Of a stretch of 64,000 bases of DNA, positions 47,944 to 59,514 are shown one piece after another. Position 1 is the stretch's first letter; every line of letters begins with the position of its first letter. The stretch is taken from NCBI GenBank assembly GCA_000739535.1, contig DF820464.1, positions 242,717 to 306,716 of the forward strand, written 5' to 3'. Source of the DNA: Candidatus Vecturithrix granuli (GTDB lineage Bacteria > Moduliflexota > Moduliflexia > Moduliflexales > Moduliflexaceae). The notes below the pieces were generated by a model. The model searched no databases. It was not told the origin of the DNA and saw only the letters and a list, made by a program, of their open reading frames with translations. A program made the translations under genes and the position numbers.

Positions 47944-48248
47944 ACACGCCATCGCCCATCAGAGGGCGGAGGTGCTCCATACGCACCACGCTCACGATTT
48001 TCGTCCTGGAAGGACGACTGACACTAGCCCACCGTTTCAACGGTGGGGGAGGCATGACAGTGCATTGAGTCCCGGAGGGACGACTGACGGCAAAACTCAG
48101 TCGTCCCTCCGGGACGCTCTCTCGAGGGATCTCCCTTCCCCACCGTTGAAACGGTGGGCTATTCTCACCTGTCCCTCCGGGACAAAGAACGTGAACTTGC
48201 TGCGCATGGGATGGACTCTCCGCTGCCCTGATGGAGAGACGACATGTC
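47944..48248. repeat. Large multi-layer palindrome of about 300 bases
   Basis: The layers, from outside in, are CCATCAGAGGGCGGAGG with its partner near 48220, CATACGCACCACGCTCACG with its partner near 48190, TAGCCCACCGTTTCAACGGTGGGG (48025) with its complement near 48140, and a centre built on GTCCCGGAGGGACGACTGA. It fills the gap between the MBL-fold gene and the esterase gene, with no gene inside. Plus- and minus-strand frames here are shadows. Confidence 0.8.
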
Positions 48249-49456: not shown

Positions 49457-49739
49457 AGAAACCCCCTTTTGCTTGTGGGGAGCGCCTTTCCACTCCCCGG
49501 TTATATGACTGGATTATTAACATAGCGTGGCTGCACCCATAGTGGGTCCTCCTTCAATAATAATGCAGCGCGAAATTCCAATTTCGCCGCTATAGCTCAT
49601 TCAGGTCGTTGACAGGTTCAGAGGGTTGTAACATCACGGCTTCAATTGAGTGAGCGGTTTCGCACAGGCGTTGGATGTCCTGCTCTGCAAACCCGTGCTC
49701 TTGCGTTTTTTCAATCCCAAGATATCCAATCGGTATCTC

Positions 49740-50270
49740 TTACTCATCATACAGTTCCATGCCATAGGTTTTGGGTAACTGATCTTCAAAAAGCCAACTT
49801 GCTCCACGAGTGTAGTCTTCGGCCTGTAACCAATGTAACCGCGAAAGCCCTTCCCAATGTTGAAGCGTTGGCGCAACCCCTGTCTTTGTCACTTCAAAAA
49901 TTCGGATAATCTGCTGCTCTTTCCAGATTGCATTCGTCGCAGCAAGATCGCTGTACACAACGACATACGTGCGAACTGTCTGAAGATCGCTTCGTAATCC
50001 TCTGAGAGCAGCCCTCATCGCCCGTTCACGCGCGGCAGTTTCATGCGCATACTGTGGATCAGCAAATCGAGAGAGGCGAATTCCGGCCTCAGGCGCGCCG
50101 CTGAATTGAAACACTCCCACGCGGCTTGATTGAAGACTCAAGGCATGTCCCACGCCCAGAATGATGATGATTGTCAGAATCAACGTTGCGATTGCATGGT
50201 GCTCAATCGCCATGCGACTACGTTCAAATATGTGTAAATCGTGTACATGCTGAAATGAATGTACGTGCAT
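49740..50270 (-). CDS. Unknown single-pass membrane protein under a sigma-54 promoter
   Basis: From the ATG at 50270 (GGAGG eight bases upstream) the product has 176 residues. A His-rich cytoplasmic N-terminus (HVHSFQHVHDLHIFERSR, about 1-18) leads to a hydrophobic helix (AIATLILTIIIILGVGHAL, about 25-45), then a soluble C-terminal domain containing ARERAMRAALRGLRSDLQ, TYVVVYSDLAATN and a Trp-rich tail (QHWEGLSRLHWLQAEDYTRG). I do not recognise a family. The alternation suggests a periplasmic sensor or partner of an envelope process. Its only strong context clue is the sigma-54 site 130 bases upstream and the adjacent sigma-54 response regulator gene. Confidence 0.75.
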   Translation of the reverse strand: MHVHSFQHVHDLHIFERSRMAIEHHAIATLILTIIIILGVGHALSLQSSRVGVFQFSGAPEAGIRLSRFADPQYAHETAARERAMRAALRGLRSDLQTVRTYVVVYSDLAATNAIWKEQQIIRIFEVTKTGVAPTLQHWEGLSRLHWLQAEDYTRGASWLFEDQLPKTYGMELYDE

Positions 50271-50394
50271 ATTCATCACCTCCTTATCCACTCAAGGCTT
50301 TGAGTCTTCGTGACTTCGTGGCGTGAATAATTCAGGTTATGGGTGTGAACAGCATTTTTTCGCCGCAGGCGATTCACGCCTGATAAATACATTA

Positions 50395-50411
50395 AGCAAA
50401 AACGATGCCAG
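50395..50411 (-). promoter_or_regulatory. Sigma-54 promoter of the unknown gene at 49740-50270
   Basis: On the minus strand it reads TGGCAT-CGTTT-TTGC, an exact match to the invariant bases and spacing of a -24/-12 promoter. The predicted transcript has a leader of about 115 bases. Confidence 0.75.
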
Positions 50412-52489: not shown

Positions 52490-54232
52490 TCACAGGATGA
52501 AAGCCATGAACAGAATGAGCACAAGAAAGGAAATGACCATCTGAATCGAAACGCTCAGGGAACGATCCTGGATGTTCTCCAGCTTGAGGCAAAGCGCAAA
52601 TAGCCCGCGGGCCAGGGAATTATACAAGCTATCCACGCTGAAATAGCTTACAATACGCCTCTGTTTTGAAACTTCAGTCTGAGGATGATGGAAGCCAAAG
52701 ACTCCCATTCGCAATAAAAAGGCATACAGAGCAACACCGATCCCCAGACTCACAAACGCTTCAGCGAGATGCGCAAGGGTCCAGAGACGAGGCTGCGGCG
52801 CAAACCGGCTCAACATTACCTTCAGCACAAAGCCCGGGAATATCCCTACCATGAAGGACCCTAAAGAGAGGAAGAGCATGGGAATATACATTGACGCTGG
52901 AACCTCTTGCACGTTCAAGAGCACAGAATTTGGCGGCCCGAAGAAGGTATGCCTGACCAGTTTAAGGAAGGAGGCGCAGGTTCCGGCTGAGGTCAAAATA
53001 AAAATGATCTCTAAAGGCAGATTGCCTTCCAGACCCGCAAAAATAATGCCTTTACTGGCGTATCCGCTGGTGAGTGGCACGCCTGAGATAGAGAGTGCCG
53101 CGATCAGGCACGTGAGCGTTGTCACTGGCATCTTGCGCCATAAGCCGCCTAACATCTCAATTTTGCGCGTTCCGGTTCTGAAAATCACTGCTCCGACCGC
53201 CAAAAACAACAGTCCCTTGAAGATGGCATGACTCAGTATGTGCAGCATTCCTCCGGCCAGGCCATATTTTCCGATTCCTATGCCTAACAGGATATACCCT
53301 ATTTGACTGACGCTGTGGTAGGCTAACAGCTTTTTTAAATCCTTTTGAAGCAGGGCCAGGGAAACGCCGATGACCATCGAGAGAACGCCTGTACCCATCA
53401 CCAGCAAAGCGGGACTGACCAGCCATTGGTCTATGTTAGCTGCTCCTTGCGATAAACTTCTCAGGGATTCAAAGGAGAACACGCGGCTGCCTTCTGATGT
53501 TGTTCCGAAAAAATCGGGAGAAAAAAAGGCGCGTATCAGACCGTACGCGCCCACTTTGATCATGACGCCCGAAAGAAGAGCGCTAATCGGGGAAGGCGCG
53601 GCAGGATGGGCGTCAGGCAGCCAGGTATGAAACGGAAACGCGCCTGCTTTCAGCAAACAGCCGATGGAAAAGCTGATGCCCGCCAGACGCCCCAGGTATT
53701 CCTTGTCCAGCGGGACGATGAAGAGCACCAGGATGGCGGTCAGAATGAACAGCCCGCCCACAAGCATCATGACGATATATTTGTAGCCCGCGTCTAAAGC
53801 TGCCTTCTCCCGCGAGTGGATGATGAGAAAGTACGCGGAGATTGATACGGTTTCGAAAAAAATATAAAACCCCAGAAGTCCCTGAGAGAAGATAAGCCCC
53901 AACAGGCTGCCAAAATTCAGGGTGAGCAGAACGTAATATTTCAGGCGATGATCTGTGACATAGTCCGCAGAATAGATCATCACAAGCAGATACAACGCGG
54001 AGACCAGTACGCCAAACCCCAGGCTCAGTCTATCCACGCAGAAATATAGCTCGAAATTGCCCATCAGAGGAAAAGAACGGAATTCAAGCATTTTATCCAG
54101 AGCAATCTGCGGATAGACGCTGAGTAAGCATAGCAGCGCTGTCAGAGGAAATACACAGGGGATCATAGAGATAAGGTTGAAACGAAGAGATGTTAATTTT
54201 GGCTCTAAAGGAGTTTGTTTCATATTAAGCAT
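52490..54232 (-). CDS. MrpD/NuoM-like proton-conducting antiporter subunit (second copy)
   Basis: The 580-residue membrane protein has about 14 helices with FVFETVSISAYFLIIHS-like and AGAFPFHTWLPDAHPAAPSP segments, ISALLSGVMIKVGAYGLIR and LLAYHSVSQIGYILLG, all typical of the Mrp/Mbh/complex I proton-channel subunits. Its long C-terminal amphipathic stretch (about 490-580) resembles the lateral helix of NuoL-type subunits. In the absence of a full MrpA it may supply that function. Two possible starts (54232 and 54223) share an AAAGGGGAG site. It is last in the mrp operon, beyond a large palindrome. Confidence 0.85.
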   Translation of the reverse strand: MLNMKQTPLEPKLTSLRFNLISMIPCVFPLTALLCLLSVYPQIALDKMLEFRSFPLMGNFELYFCVDRLSLGFGVLVSALYLLVMIYSADYVTDHRLKYYVLLTLNFGSLLGLIFSQGLLGFYIFFETVSISAYFLIIHSREKAALDAGYKYIVMMLVGGLFILTAILVLFIVPLDKEYLGRLAGISFSIGCLLKAGAFPFHTWLPDAHPAAPSPISALLSGVMIKVGAYGLIRAFFSPDFFGTTSEGSRVFSFESLRSLSQGAANIDQWLVSPALLVMGTGVLSMVIGVSLALLQKDLKKLLAYHSVSQIGYILLGIGIGKYGLAGGMLHILSHAIFKGLLFLAVGAVIFRTGTRKIEMLGGLWRKMPVTTLTCLIAALSISGVPLTSGYASKGIIFAGLEGNLPLEIIFILTSAGTCASFLKLVRHTFFGPPNSVLLNVQEVPASMYIPMLFLSLGSFMVGIFPGFVLKVMLSRFAPQPRLWTLAHLAEAFVSLGIGVALYAFLLRMGVFGFHHPQTEVSKQRRIVSYFSVDSLYNSLARGLFALCLKLENIQDRSLSVSIQMVISFLVLILFMAFIL

Positions 54233-54319
54233 ATTCTCCCCTTTCCTCGCTTCTATGGGAGAGGATCCGGGGTGGAGAAACGTTTACCACATTCCCTATG
54301 GTTGCTATTTAGTTCATCT

Positions 54320-54501
54320 TTTCGCCGTAGGCGATACAGTATTGTAGCAACGAGGAAACCCCCATCCTTTTTTCGCCGTAGGCGATCTACAACTGTTGCG
54401 CCGAAGGACAATCATTGGCTTTTTGTAGATCGCCTACGGCGAATTCAAAGCAAGAAGGGCACTATTTGTTGTTACAATACTGTATCGCCTACGGCGAAAA
54501 A
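54320..54501. repeat. Two-layer palindrome, CGCCGTAGGCGAT family
   Basis: TTCGCCGTAGGCGATACAGT pairs with ACTGTATCGCCTACGGCGAA, and inside it TTCGCCGTAGGCGATCTACA pairs with TGTAGATCGCCTACGGCGAA. It lies between the two proton-channel genes. A single related arm is near 50361. Confidence 0.85.
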
Positions 54502-54521
54502 GCCTGGTAAATAATTACTTC

Positions 54522-55964
54522 TTACGGCACGGCGGTAACGCTCAGTATATTTTCTCCTGCCCCGGGAAATACAACCACGACAAAAATCCCTGATACCAGA
54601 AGAATCAGGGAAAGATAAACAAGAGCAGAACATTTCTTTTTGCTGATAATATACCCCTCTTCGCCTTGAAAGAACACACCGATGCACCTCAGAAAATACG
54701 CACCTGTGATGATACTGCTGAAAAATATGATCACGGCAATGAAAGGATGACCACTTTTAGCGGAAGCAAGGCCGATCATCAGCTTACTGAAAAATCCTCC
54801 GGCCGGGGGAATGCCTATGAGAGAGAGGGAAGCCAGGATAAAGATGGCAGTCACCGCCGGCATTTCTTTGGCGACGATGCCTAACTCTGAGATTTTTCTG
54901 CGCCCGGTTTGCTCGATCACCGCACCTGCACAGAGAAACAGGCAGCTTTTGGCAAACGCATGATTCACGGTATGGAATAACGCGCCGCTTGCGCCGCTTG
55001 CGGTTCCCAGGCCGATCCCGATCAGAATATAGCCGATCTGGTTAATGCTGGAATACGCCAGCAAGCGTTTCAGGTCGCTCTGAACTAAAGCCATAATCGC
55101 TCCAAAAATCGCCGTGACTGCGCCGGTATAAACCAGAAGCGCGTACAGGCTCTCTATGAAAGGACAAAGCCTGAACATCTGGACGGTTCTGAAAAAGGCA
55201 TAGATTCCAACTTTGATGACAATGCCCGACAGCAGGGCGCTAACCGGAGAAGGGGCGATGGAATGGGCGTCAGGAAGCCAGGTGTGGAGCGGCGCCATGG
55301 CGCATTTTATGCCAAACCCGATCATAAATAAGGCCAGTGTCAAGATGAGCGCCCGGGGGGATGTGGAAAAAAACTCAGGAATTTTCTCGCTGATCTCAAT
55401 CATATTGAGTGTGCCGATATAGCGGTATAAGACGCCAATCCCAAACAGAAAGAAGATCAGCCCGATGCTGCTGATGAGCAGGTAGTTGATGCCTGCCAGG
55501 AACGACCCCTGACTGCCATAGTGCGCTACCAGGATATAGGAAGCGATGGACAACACCTCCATGAACACAAAGAGGTTGAAAATATCTCTGGAAAGAAAGG
55601 CCCCTGAGATGGCGCTCATCATGATTAACAGCAGCGCATAAAACTTTGGCTCGTATTTTCCCTCGGCCAGAGCGTACAGGAGCACCAGCACCCCGAGAAG
55701 GTTGTTCAGCAGCACCATAAAGATGGTCAATCGATCGACCAGGAGCGAAATGCCGATAATCTGATCCCAGGATCCCAGGGTATAGACGACGCTTTCGCCG
55801 CGCAAAATTTGAGGGGTCAGGATCAGGGCCAGCCCAAACGCCGCCGCCAGGCTAAGCATCGCCAGATGTCCGCAGAAAGCTCTCCACGGCGTGAAATCCA
55901 GCAGCGTGATGACTACCGCCGTGAACATCGGAATCACGATAATGAAAATCGCTGCATTCGTCAT
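54522..55964 (-). CDS. mrpD: Mrp antiporter subunit D (MnhD)
   Basis: The 480-residue protein has about 13 helices with FVFMEVLSIASYILVAHYG, KCAMAPLHTWLPDAHSIAPSPVSALLSG-type channel segment (glutamate and lysine of the proton path), LLAYSSINQIGYILIGIGLG and SLIGIPPAGGFFSKLMIG. It is a proton-conducting subunit of the multi-subunit Na+/H+ antiporter. Its ATG follows the mrpC stop without a gap. Confidence 0.9.
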   Translation of the reverse strand: MTNAAIFIIVIPMFTAVVITLLDFTPWRAFCGHLAMLSLAAAFGLALILTPQILRGESVVYTLGSWDQIIGISLLVDRLTIFMVLLNNLLGVLVLLYALAEGKYEPKFYALLLIMMSAISGAFLSRDIFNLFVFMEVLSIASYILVAHYGSQGSFLAGINYLLISSIGLIFFLFGIGVLYRYIGTLNMIEISEKIPEFFSTSPRALILTLALFMIGFGIKCAMAPLHTWLPDAHSIAPSPVSALLSGIVIKVGIYAFFRTVQMFRLCPFIESLYALLVYTGAVTAIFGAIMALVQSDLKRLLAYSSINQIGYILIGIGLGTASGASGALFHTVNHAFAKSCLFLCAGAVIEQTGRRKISELGIVAKEMPAVTAIFILASLSLIGIPPAGGFFSKLMIGLASAKSGHPFIAVIIFFSSIITGAYFLRCIGVFFQGEEGYIISKKKCSALVYLSLILLVSGIFVVVVFPGAGENILSVTAVP

Positions 55965-56291
55965 CTACAAGTGCCTTTTTAATTCTTCAACATCCAGGGT
56001 GTGATAATTCTCATAGATTTTTACCGCGATAGAGAGCGCCAGGGCTGTCACGCAGATTCCGATCACGATGGCGGTCAGCATAAGCGCCTGAGGAACAGGA
56101 TCAACCACATTTTCCATTCCATGCTCCAGGATCGGAGCGTTAGCGTTTGAACGATAGCCAACGCTGATGAAATACAGGATTACACCCCCCTCCAGAATAT
56201 ACAGCCCGATGATCTTCTTGATCAGATTTCTCTTCGCCATCAGGCCGTAGAGTCCGATTAACATCAGGACAATGCTGGTATAGGTTGCCAT
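55965..56291 (-). CDS. mrpC: Mrp antiporter subunit C (NuoK-like)
   Basis: The 108-residue three-helix protein has GLYGLMAKRNLIKKIIGLYI, a glutamate-adjacent membrane segment and DPVPQALMLTAIVIGICVTA, matching MrpC/MnhC and NuoK. It is one base after the mrpB stop and directly before mrpD, with GAAGGGGA upstream. Confidence 0.92.
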   Translation of the reverse strand: MATYTSIVLMLIGLYGLMAKRNLIKKIIGLYILEGGVILYFISVGYRSNANAPILEHGMENVVDPVPQALMLTAIVIGICVTALALSIAVKIYENYHTLDVEELKRHL

Positions 56292-56292
56292 G

Positions 56293-56715
56293 TCAGTCCC
56301 CTTCCTCCCCGGCCAGCGAATAGAAAATGATACTTATTGCGGCCCCGACTTTCAGCCCGATGGCCAGATTTAAAAAGAGAATAAAGCCCGAACCGCCAAA
56401 TCGGCCGCCTTCTCCCTGGGGCAGGAAATCTTTGAGGAAATGATACCCAAAGAGAATGCCTCCCAGGCCAATGATCATAAAGACGAGCGGGCCGATACTT
56501 TCCATCAGGCCAAGGATATTTTTCTTGAACCGTTCCTCCGTTTTGGAAATTCCCTGTGACAGGGAAAGCAGGATAATTGCCGATCCAATGACAACCCCTC
56601 CTTGAAATCCTCCACCCGGCGAAAGATGGCCATAAGCAACCACATATAAGCCGAAGAGGAGGATGAACGGAAACAACTTTCGGGTCATGGTTCTGATGAT
56701 GGTTGATTCTTGCAT
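56293..56715 (-). CDS. mrpB: Mrp antiporter subunit B, C-terminal domain type (MnhB)
   Basis: The 140-residue protein has four helices with LFGLYVVAYGHLSPGGGFQGGVVIGSA and a GSGFILFLNLAIGLKVGAA segment, the hallmark of MrpB. It starts the B-C-D block. Two repeats (56752-56864 and 56888-56974) separate it from the PII-like gene upstream. Confidence 0.92.
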   Translation of the reverse strand: MQESTIIRTMTRKLFPFILLFGLYVVAYGHLSPGGGFQGGVVIGSAIILLSLSQGISKTEERFKKNILGLMESIGPLVFMIIGLGGILFGYHFLKDFLPQGEGGRFGGSGFILFLNLAIGLKVGAAISIIFYSLAGEEGD

Positions 56716-56751
56716 GGCTTATTTCGACTCCTCCTTACCTAAATATTTTTC

Positions 56752-56864
56752 GGTAGTGGTTAAATGGGAAGTGATGCCCGCTCGTTGAGCGAAGTCGAAA
56801 CGAGCCGCTCATTGTTCCCTTCGACTTCGCTCAGGGAACGCATCACTTCCCATTTAACCATTAC
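56752..56864. repeat. MITE-like element, arms GGTAGTGGTTAAAT, inside the mrp operon
   Basis: GGTAGTGGTTAAAT-GGGAAGTGAT and ATCACTTCCC-ATTTAACCATTACC enclose GAGCGAAGTCGAA and TTCGACTTCGCTC. TATTTTTC occurs on both flanks, a possible 8-base target duplication. Third copy of this family. Confidence 0.8.
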
Positions 56865-56887
56865 CTATTTTTCGTATATGAATCTGC

Positions 56888-56974
56888 TTAACCCACCCCT
56901 GGCCCCTCCCAGGAGGGGAGTTCACGGCTGCACCACAATACACCCATACCTGTCAGGGGTGAGGGGTGGGTTAA
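56888..56974. repeat. Inverted repeat AACCCACCCCT ... AGGGGTGGGTT
   Basis: TTAACCCACCCCTGGCCCC pairs with GGGGTGAGGGGTGGGTTAA around a short inner pairing. It lies next to the MITE-like element between mrpB and the PII-like gene. Confidence 0.75.
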
Positions 56975-56989
56975 AAAATGCGTCAGGCA

Positions 56990-57340
56990 CTAAACCCAAT
57001 CCTCAAATAGTCCGTACTGGCTTAAAGAGAAACTGACTGGCAGGGCGAAAATTTCCCCTATCTCAGGTTCTTGAAAATCGATCCCGATTTCCTTTAACAC
57101 GTCTATCAACCTGATCAGAGTGTCTTTATCTTTTAAGACGGCGATAATATTCTTATTGTAGGGTCTGGAGCCAGCCAGCGACTGGATTAACCCGGCGAAA
57201 ATAGGCACATCGTTGGCCAATACTCGTTCCATGCCCACGCCATCCAGGATCGTCGCTCCCGTAATTTCAAGTTCGATCATCGCGGAAAGAAGATCATCCT
57301 CGTGTTCTTCTTTGTTCAGAATAATCCATACCATTAACAT
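56990..57340 (-). CDS. PII-like signalling protein
   Basis: The 116-residue protein has the alternating beta-alpha-beta layout of PII-like (ferredoxin-fold) proteins: VWIILNKEEHEDDLLSAMIE, ELEITGATILDGVGMERVL, NIIAVLKDKDTLIRLIDVLK. It does not keep the uridylylated tyrosine loop of GlnB. Membrane-transport-associated PII-like proteins bind nucleotides and gate transporters, and its place in the mrp operon fits this. It overlaps the EIIA gene by 7 bases, so it is translationally coupled to it. Confidence 0.75.
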   Translation of the reverse strand: MLMVWIILNKEEHEDDLLSAMIELEITGATILDGVGMERVLANDVPIFAGLIQSLAGSRPYNKNIIAVLKDKDTLIRLIDVLKEIGIDFQEPEIGEIFALPVSFSLSQYGLFEDWV

Positions 57341-57804
57341 CTGGAGTGACCTTCCTCTCGCTCTTTGAGCAAATTCATCACCTTCTCAGGAGATCCGGCG
57401 TGCATGACAGCTTCTCGGAAGTCCTCCTCCCTGAAAATTCGGGCAATCTTCGCCAGGACGCTTAAATATTCTGTGTTTTTCTCCGGTGAAGACACAAGCA
57501 TAAAAATAATATGAGCTGGCTTGCCATCCAGAGCATCGTAATCAACCCCCTCCTCCGAAAGGCCAACGCTTAAAACAACCCCCTCAACATCATCGGACTT
57601 CGCATGAGCGATGGCTAAACCAAAGCCTACTCCGGTCGTTTGTATTTGTTCTCTTTGCAGGAGGCTCTTAAGAAGCTCTTCCTTATTATGAATTTTTCCT
57701 GAGGTTGCCGCAACTTCCAACAACTCTTGTAATATGCCAATTTTATCTCGGTTTTTCACCCCAACGACAATCCTATCCAGGGAGAGCACTTTACAGATTT
57801 CCAT
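57334..57804 (-). CDS. PTS EIIA-Ntr-like protein (PtsN family)
   Basis: The 156-residue product fits the fructose/nitrogen-type PTS EIIA domain: LLQREQIQTTGVGFGLAIAH with the phosphorylatable histidine in AIAHAK (about residue 66), then VVLSVGLSEEGVDYDALDGK and VHMLVS-like FMLVSSPEKNTEYLSVLAKI. PtsN proteins control K+ and ion homeostasis and report nitrogen and phosphoenolpyruvate status. It sits inside the Mrp antiporter operon beside a PII-like gene, so it probably tunes Na+/H+ or K+ balance (inferred). No ptsP or npr is in the window. Confidence 0.86.
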   Translation of the reverse strand: MEICKVLSLDRIVVGVKNRDKIGILQELLEVAATSGKIHNKEELLKSLLQREQIQTTGVGFGLAIAHAKSDDVEGVVLSVGLSEEGVDYDALDGKPAHIIFMLVSSPEKNTEYLSVLAKIARIFREEDFREAVMHAGSPEKVMNLLKEREEGHSRC

Positions 57805-57812
57805 ATTTTGAC

Positions 57813-58067
57813 CTATCCTTTTCGCTTTAAGAGCAGGAAAACACCGGTGGCTGCTGTAAAAAGCGCCATTGCTTCACCCAATGTGTCATACGCTCTATAT
57901 CCTAAATAAATAGACGTGACAATATTGACGGCGCCCGTCTCCTCACGCCCTCTGTTAATATAGTATTGGGCCGTTTCGTTATGGCCTGTTTGTTCTTCGA
58001 AGTCCAGGGAGACGACAATCAAGCACCCCAGTAGAGCAACGAGGAAGATCACTCTGATGACGCTCAT
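57813..58067 (-). CDS. Mbh/Mrp-type subunit E (MrpA C-terminal domain piece)
   Basis: The 84-residue protein has two helices with ALLGCLIVVSLDF, then INRGREETGAVNIVTSIYLG and YRAYDTLGEAMALFTAATGV, the signature of the membrane-bound hydrogenase subunit E / MrpA C-terminal domain. It overlaps the DUF4040 gene upstream as ATGA. In many bacteria this piece is fused to MrpA; here it is separate. Confidence 0.86.
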   Translation of the reverse strand: MSVIRVIFLVALLGCLIVVSLDFEEQTGHNETAQYYINRGREETGAVNIVTSIYLGYRAYDTLGEAMALFTAATGVFLLLKRKG

Positions 58068-58294
58068 GCTCGCCCTCCTCCGCTACGATGAATCGCTGCC
58101 ACAAAAATCACCGTAGATACCCCCGCACCGACCGCCGCTTCTGCCATCGCCACATCCGGGGCTTTGAGGTAATAAAAGACAATTGACATGACCAGGCTGA
58201 AGACCGCCAGCATGATCACTGCATTGATCAGGTCTTTCACCTCAAGCGCGCAGATCGCCATCAGCACCAGAATAAGCAGAAACATATTGATCAT
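58064..58294 (-). CDS. DUF4040-type subunit (MbhD-like)
   Basis: The 76-residue protein has two to three helices with MAICALEVKDLINAVIMLAVFS, YYLKAPDVAMAEAAVGAG and a short polar end. It corresponds to the DUF4040/MbhD region of MrpA. It is coupled by ATGA to the gene that follows. Confidence 0.85.
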   Translation of the reverse strand: MINMFLLILVLMAICALEVKDLINAVIMLAVFSLVMSIVFYYLKAPDVAMAEAAVGAGVSTVIFVAAIHRSGGGRA

Positions 58295-58325
58295 ATCTAC
58301 TATTTTGGGACAGCAGTGTTAAATA

Positions 58326-58387
58326 CCTCGGACAGAATTGTCCGGCGTCACATCACATGGTCGGACAAGTTTAAGTTGTCGGACAAG
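58326..58387. repeat. TCCGACA-type palindromes between mrpG and the DUF4040 gene
   Basis: CGGACAGAATTGTCCG forms a compact inner hairpin, and GTCGGACAAGTTTAAGTTGTCGGAC repeats the TCGGACAA word. They resemble the palindrome at 37848-37886. They interrupt the mrp operon. Confidence 0.6.
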
Positions 58388-58433
58388 GCTGCCCCGGGCT
58401 AAGGAGTTCAGATCGAATCATCAATTACTTTAA

Positions 58434-58751
58434 TCATTTCAGCATTTTTCTTTTGACCCACATAGTGACTTTCGAATCATGCGCTGATTTCCCTATGGCG
58501 TGGGAAGATACCGGGTTTGTCAAGAAGATAAAAAACGCGATTACGGCGATCTGAAGCGAGATGTGCGAAAATCCCTTGAAAACCATCAGGCCGAGAAAGA
58601 TCGAGATCACCCCTGTGGTGCCGCATTTTGAACTGGCATGAAGGCGTGTATAGACATCCGGAAACCTCAACACACCAATGGTACCGATGAACATAAAAAA
58701 TATGCCAAAACCCATAAAAATACTGAAAATCATTGAATATTCAATTCTCAA
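58434..58751 (-). CDS. mrpG: Mrp antiporter subunit G (MnhG)
   Basis: The 105-residue three-helix protein has MFIGTIGVLRFPDVYTRLHA followed by SSKCGTTGVISIFLG, the MrpG signature. It starts at TTG (58751) or at ATG 58733. A polar C-terminal tail (HDSKVTMWVKRKM) follows the last helix. Confidence 0.9.
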   Translation of the reverse strand: MRIEYSMIFSIFMGFGIFFMFIGTIGVLRFPDVYTRLHASSKCGTTGVISIFLGLMVFKGFSHISLQIAVIAFFIFLTNPVSSHAIGKSAHDSKVTMWVKRKMLK

Positions 58752-58759
58752 TCGTCTGG

Positions 58760-59005
58760 TTAGCCTTTTCTCGGGTATTTGGTGATCGCGATAATCCCCA
58801 CATAGCCTAAAATCGCATATACTAAGGCGACATCCAGGAAAATCTTTTGATCCCAGAGAACTGCTAACAGGACCATGACAACAGTGGTCTTCGTGGCAAT
58901 CAGATTTAATCCGACCAGTCGATCCTGGATTGTCGGCCCAAAGATCACCCGATACAGACTTAAAAGTGAGGTGATAGAGAGAAAGATCACCGTAAATCGG
59001 ATCAT
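58760..59005 (-). CDS. mrpF: Mrp antiporter subunit F (MnhF)
   Basis: The 81-residue three-helix protein carries YRVIFGPTIQDRLVGLNLIA and ILGYVGIIAITKYPRKG, typical of MrpF. It overlaps the end of mrpE by 4 bases and precedes mrpG by 8. Confidence 0.92.
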   Translation of the reverse strand: MIRFTVIFLSITSLLSLYRVIFGPTIQDRLVGLNLIATKTTVVMVLLAVLWDQKIFLDVALVYAILGYVGIIAITKYPRKG

Positions 59006-59514
59006 CTGAAGATCCTCCCCAATAAGCGTTCGAAAGTTCCTTTAATTATCTCCCCGGCATACAGGGCGCTTGTTCCTTTAGATTCCAGCCAGTGGACATA
59101 GAGATAGTCATCCCGCAGATCAATCGTCAGCGTGCCCGGAGTGATCGTAATCGAGTTGGCGAGCATAACCCGAGCAAGTTCGGATCTAAGCCGGGTTCGG
59201 ATCCTGATCTCGCCAGGATTGATCTTCATCGTCAGCACCCGATACGCGACATCAAAACTGGCAATATAGACCTTTGCAATGAGAATGATCAGGTACAGCA
59301 AGATGATATCCGGCCTGGGCACAATATCCTTAATAAACACTTCAGTTTCATCCACAAAATAATCGTAGGTGATCAGCGCAATAAAAAATGAAAAAACCAC
59401 TCCCAGCAGGAGCGACTGCGGATCGAGATTCCCGGTAAAAATCATCCACCCCAGCATCAAGAAAAAAAATGTGACGCCGATCCTGAATATCTTCCATTTT
59501 GTTTTCAGATTCAT
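59002..59514 (-). CDS. mrpE: Mrp antiporter subunit E (MnhE)
   Basis: The 170-residue protein has two to three N-terminal helices, then a cytoplasmic MrpE domain with MKINPGEIRIRTRLRSELAR and NSITITPGTLTIDL-D-DDYLYVHWLE. It begins the antiporter part of the operon. It starts 29 bases after the stop of the DUF499-type gene on the same strand, so read-through from that gene is possible. Confidence 0.92.
   Translation of the reverse strand: MNLKTKWKIFRIGVTFFFLMLGWMIFTGNLDPQSLLLGVVFSFFIALITYDYFVDETEVFIKDIVPRPDIILLYLIILIAKVYIASFDVAYRVLTMKINPGEIRIRTRLRSELARVMLANSITITPGTLTIDLRDDYLYVHWLESKGTSALYAGEIIKGTFERLLGRIFR

Follow-up and report, generated by a model that had tools for sequence, protein, structure and literature searches.

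The window, by which we mean the whole 64,000-nucleotide stretch of Candidatus Vecturithrix granuli DNA analysed here, carries on its reverse strand an open reading frame of 176 codons (50270–49740) that starts with an ATG at 50270 behind a good ribosome site (AAGGAGGTG) and ends in a premature TAA at 49742–49740. It is preceded on the same strand by a sigma-54 promoter, three putative enhancer dyads and the gene of a sigma-54 enhancer-binding response regulator. The organism has been described from 21 records (DF820463–DF820483) as having a genome of over 7 Mb with many response regulators (PMC4312070).

The first-pass annotation had called the promoter an exact sigma-54 promoter, and the –24/–12 element TGGCATCGTTTTTGCT (50410–50395, reverse strand), 202 bp past the stop codon of the regulator gene, does match the consensus TGGCAY-N5-TTGCW exactly, with a GG/GC spacing of 10. 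In its 15-base form (50410–50396) the pattern is expected 0.53 times per shuffled window; genome-wide, the exact 16-base pattern occurs at 59 sites versus 9 for a reversed control, a six-fold excess. Since sigma-54 itself is encoded by a single rpoN gene in this genome, the count alone gives the window site a chance of about 85% of being genuine. The presumed 5′ leader of the reading frame contains a dispersed repeat (50377–50353, reverse strand; core CGCCTGCGGCGAAAAAATG), to which about 20 further places in the genome have short matches. A PEP-CTERM box in association with sigma-54 control of exported proteins is a known kind of regulon. Several other sigma-54 promoters of the genome (at L051, L052, L058, L065, L090, L101 and L107, mostly with secreted proteins) have GTGTCGAAAAATTTTACA upstream and resemble such a PEP-CTERM-box regulon, whereas the window promoter lacks this box.

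The reading frame encodes one strong membrane helix (residues 26–44) and has seven histidines among its first 25 residues. Both features agree with the earlier description of a 176-residue protein with a His-rich tail and a single helix, but the frame does not represent a complete protein, as two paralogues in the same genome both reach about 45–50 residues beyond its stop. The paralogue on contig C17 is full length (221 residues, 63% identical to the window copy), with its helix at residues 23–41 and the same His-rich start (MHVHSFQH; HVHSFQHxH). The copy on contig C16 no longer has its N-terminal part, which gives way to unrelated, repeat-like sequence, and retains the residues from about 87 on. 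Where the window copy has its stop, the paralogues carry CAT and CAA. Past the TAA, the window frame remains open and alignable for 49 codons (49739–49593, reverse strand), reading EIPIGYLGIEKTQEHGFAEQDIQRLCETAHSIEAVMLQPSEPVNDLNEL, before a TAG at 49592–49590. Between the window and C17 copies, dN/dS is lowest in the N-terminal and membrane part, at about 0.18, and is 0.32 in the pre-stop GAF part; the stretch behind the stop has 0.35. Because the post-stop value resembles the pre-stop value, selection acted on the last part through most of the period after these copies diverged, and the stop is either recent or peculiar to the present assembly, as an error or an allele. The two paralogues that run past the stop and the alignable, constrained DNA beyond it together indicate that the reading frame is a nonsense-truncated copy of a protein of ~225 residues, composed of a membrane (TM) helix and a GAF-like domain.

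The protein had been considered family-less, which holds for the truncated form only: it gave no convincing Pfam match and nothing in NCBIfam, and a weak VWA_2 match (E 0.099) was rejected as chance. The full-length C17 paralogue, however, weakly matches Pfam GAF (PF01590; E 0.0028) over profile positions 3–133 of 133, at 18.6 bits against a gathering cut-off of 22.4, and the C16 copy has a GAF_2 match at its end. The C17 paralogue also has the ending typical of GAF domains, G.PVGYLGI......F...D..LL...A..I..AL. In contrast to that family, it scores below the cut-off, is fused to an N-terminal membrane helix and has no output domain, and in the window copy the last part is missing; the GAF-like assignment is probable rather than proven. 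An AlphaFold2 model of the C17 paralogue built from three sequences had a pLDDT of 37 and was unusable. No relatives outside its own genome were found in the genome contigs, in viral contigs, in the 59 nearest genomes or in three other genomes of the phylum, and the TM–GAF proteins appear to be a small, genome-specific family. The earlier suggestion of an important envelope task is weakened, since the gene is nonsense-truncated in the present assembly and has no detectable homologue elsewhere. Neither this importance nor metal binding by the N-terminal histidines gained support from the analysis; the His-rich start is kept in one paralogue, the C17 one, and no more than that.

The upstream neighbour was correctly recognized as a sigma-54 response regulator. 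The intact 580-residue protein (52355–50613, reverse strand) has a Rec-PAS-Sigma54_activat (AAA+)-HTH_8 architecture by Pfam (Sigma54_activat, E 4.3e-62), in which the Walker motifs and the arginine fingers are present. In an alignment of 44 regulators of the genome, it deviates at only two of 51 conserved columns, namely the second glycine of GAFTGA and T417A. Its sigma-54 contact loop reads GTFTSA in place of GAFTGA, retaining the phenylalanine and the threonine but replacing alanine by threonine and glycine by serine. This form is unique among the regulators of the genome, and the same glycine also varies in two others (GAFTDA). NorR with a serine at this glycine is active and partly constitutive, or signal-independent (PMC2941729), and several natural variants of the loop in Desulfovibrio vulgaris are thought to be active (PMC4641369). 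By analogy with these variants, the window regulator is probably functional and possibly leaky. Within a well-supported clade of 11 regulators, it is closest to L133, a regulator on C17 (support 89/93). Directly upstream of the regulator gene, across a gap of 134 bp, lie genes for an Mrp/Mnh-type antiporter (52490–59514, reverse strand), with a gene for a PTS EIIA (PtsN-like) protein among them (57334–57804); this suggests that the sigma-54 regulator is connected with ion transport and EIIA signalling.

Between regulator gene and promoter, the inverted and direct repeats reported earlier are real, and take the form of three dyads of the type GNCA-N4-TGNC, located at –182, –164 and –91 relative to the –24 element. 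All are on the reverse strand: dyad 1, GCCAATGCTGTC (50592–50581), lies in an 18-bp direct repeat; dyad 2, GCCATTTTTGAC (50574–50563), is 73 bp from dyad 3, as at other promoters; and dyad 3, GACATTTCTGTC (50501–50490), is a perfect GACA-N4-TGTC. General repeat statistics for the region were weak: in the 200 bp before the promoter, perfect palindromes did not stand out from chance (8 of 60 shuffles), and raw direct repeats were modestly above it (5 of 300). This was resolved by the GNCAN4TGNC framework seen across the promoters of the clade, with which none of 20,000 shuffles of the window upstream region had three dyads and 25 had two or more. These shuffle figures are optimistic, as the framework was derived by comparing the window upstream region with other promoters of the clade and of the 59 sites, and hence was recognized partly with the window in view. 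Firmer support for the dyads comes from their genome-wide excess and common spacing. The 260-bp regions upstream of the 59 sites contain 19 GNCAN4TGNC motifs, compared to a shuffled mean of 2.7 and a maximum of 7. Pairs of dyads 70–73 bp apart, with no more than one mismatch in a pair, are present at the window promoter and at five others (C17:458154, C20:588250, C20:609554, C20:611905 and C20:636183), with one further pair, at C10:213415, positioned further upstream. A pattern taken from the tandem 18-bp direct repeat, which holds two of the dyads, has its exact genome match at the window only and thus fits a private target. The dyads are most likely binding sites for the window regulator, as predicted from these patterns.

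The arrangement of regulator and promoter recurs in the genome. A perfect sigma-54 site lies within 1.2 kb of 16 of the 46 regulators listed, ten times downstream on the same strand and six times divergently, and it is often found about 190–240 bp from the end of the regulator gene, a range that includes the 202 bp of the window. The full-length TM–GAF gene on contig C17 belongs to an operon (VWA – CHAT – VWA/FGE – TM-GAF) that begins at a perfect sigma-54 site. The motif TTGC-N8-GCAA occurs upstream of only three of the 59 sites, namely the promoter beside L133, C17:322815 and the promoter of this operon. The full-length TM–GAF gene therefore probably belongs to the regulon of L133, and each of the two sister regulators would be linked to a TM–GAF gene. 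Homologues had been expected to keep the promoter and the regulator as neighbour, and they do so in part: the C17 operon has its perfect site and enhancer motifs in common with the sister-regulator promoter, but the C17 paralogue itself lacks a promoter of its own and the C16 copy has none of the 59 perfect sites beside it. The C16 copy (L005, G000:C16, 8411–10509) lies divergently to a regulator, which is followed by phage-tail-like genes, and a one-mismatch sigma-54 site occurs 320 bp past this regulator. In another genus of the same family, the regulator most similar to that of the window (47%) has a perfect site 183 bp past its stop, which precedes an unrelated 139-residue membrane protein; the geometry of regulator and promoter is kept there, with a different target. 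Together, the dyads, the layout elsewhere in the genome and the parallel sister regulon argue for the dedicated adjacent regulator proposed in the first-pass annotation.

The promoter, the recurrent dyads, the paralogues, the intactness of the regulator and the truncation of the reading frame can be read directly from the DNA, and we consider it likely that the locus is a self-contained sigma-54 module with a probable dedicated activator and a nonsense-truncated target. The NtrC-type regulator encoded just upstream would bind the three dyads about 90–180 bp before the –24/–12 promoter, and sigma-54 RNA polymerase would transcribe the gene, which starts about 114 nt past the presumed start site. 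The original product of ~225 residues would have joined the GAF-like domain to one membrane helix and a short N-terminal tail rich in histidine, and may have served as a membrane sensor or in signalling. In the present assembly, a recent stop at position 177 removes the end of the GAF-like domain, and the product is probably truncated and probably non-functional.

The stop itself could be an assembly error or a strain variant, or be read through, in which case a full-length TM–GAF protein like the C17 paralogue would be made. The assembly looks metagenome-derived (21 contigs, 8.4 Mb, 10.75% estimated contamination), the stop differs by a single base from the CAA of the C16 copy, and the 49 intact codons after it are as constrained as those before it; a recent genuine mutation would, however, give the same pattern, and we regard an unreal stop as a serious but distinctly less probable account. 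Alternatively, the 176-residue form may itself be the functional product, crossing the membrane once and carrying part of a sensor domain. The intact promoter, ribosome site and regulator are consistent with this, as is the N-terminal and membrane part being the most conserved, at the dN/dS of about 0.18. Retention of the missing part in both paralogues, and selection on the corresponding window DNA until recently, nevertheless make a functional truncated form improbable.

Two further alternatives concern the regulator. The whole module may be decaying, as the target is truncated, the third copy on C16 lacks its N-terminus and the sigma-54 loop of the regulator is altered to a sequence found in no other regulator of the genome. 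Against such decay, every other conserved regulator residue except T417A is kept, the promoter and dyads are undamaged, and the same loop glycine is also replaced in two other regulators of the genome and in NorR variants that are active; we therefore judge decay of the module to be unlikely, and slightly more so than an unreal stop. It is also conceivable that the regulator mainly controls other promoters, with the site beside the reading frame a by-stander, since one response regulator often governs several operons and no cognate kinase is adjacent. Yet the exact 18-bp repeat pattern is found only at the window, and no long upstream match beyond background connects the window with other promoters among the 59, so that a by-stander site appears as improbable as a functional truncated protein.

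In the reading that we prefer, a truncated target under a dedicated activator, the promoter and regulator part is sound and is an instance of a recurrent and already known kind of arrangement. Like the NtrC/AtoC/ZraR-type regulators of D. vulgaris, in which co-localization of regulator and promoter is a common pattern (PMC4641369), the window regulator has a Rec-AAA+-Fis-type HTH organization, a –24/–12 promoter beside its gene and dyads upstream of that promoter. It differs in the PAS domain between Rec and AAA+ and in its GTFTSA loop, and here a whole clade in one genome has one dyad framework with fixed spacing. More tentatively, the clade may have spread as a standard cassette, consisting of a regulator, a stretch of about 200 bp that carries two or three dyads of the GNCAN4TGNC type 70–73 bp apart, a perfect –24/–12 promoter and an exchangeable target under private control, with TM–GAF as one cargo linked to two sister regulators. 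If so, any gene landing downstream would come under private control. We found no published description of sigma-54 regulation in this lineage. Taken by itself, the gene is modest and probably broken; its context is more useful, as it predicts which promoters are under which regulators in a signalling-rich lineage of large genomes, and suggests that units of regulator and promoter retain their geometry as target genes change.

Elsewhere in the genome, at L060 (G000:C11), a perfect sigma-54 site (236516–236501, reverse strand) lies beside a regulator with a GAFSGA loop. It is followed by a gene for a peptide of 97 residues that has a GG and a Cys-rich tail (CIAYATCPSKSCSIQACP...) and then by genes for what is likely a radical SAM protein and for peptidases; the group looks like a sigma-54-controlled RiPP cluster. 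Within the window, several GTCGTCCCTCCGGGA and CCCACCGTTGAAACGGTGGG repeats occur between two genes at 47980–48180.
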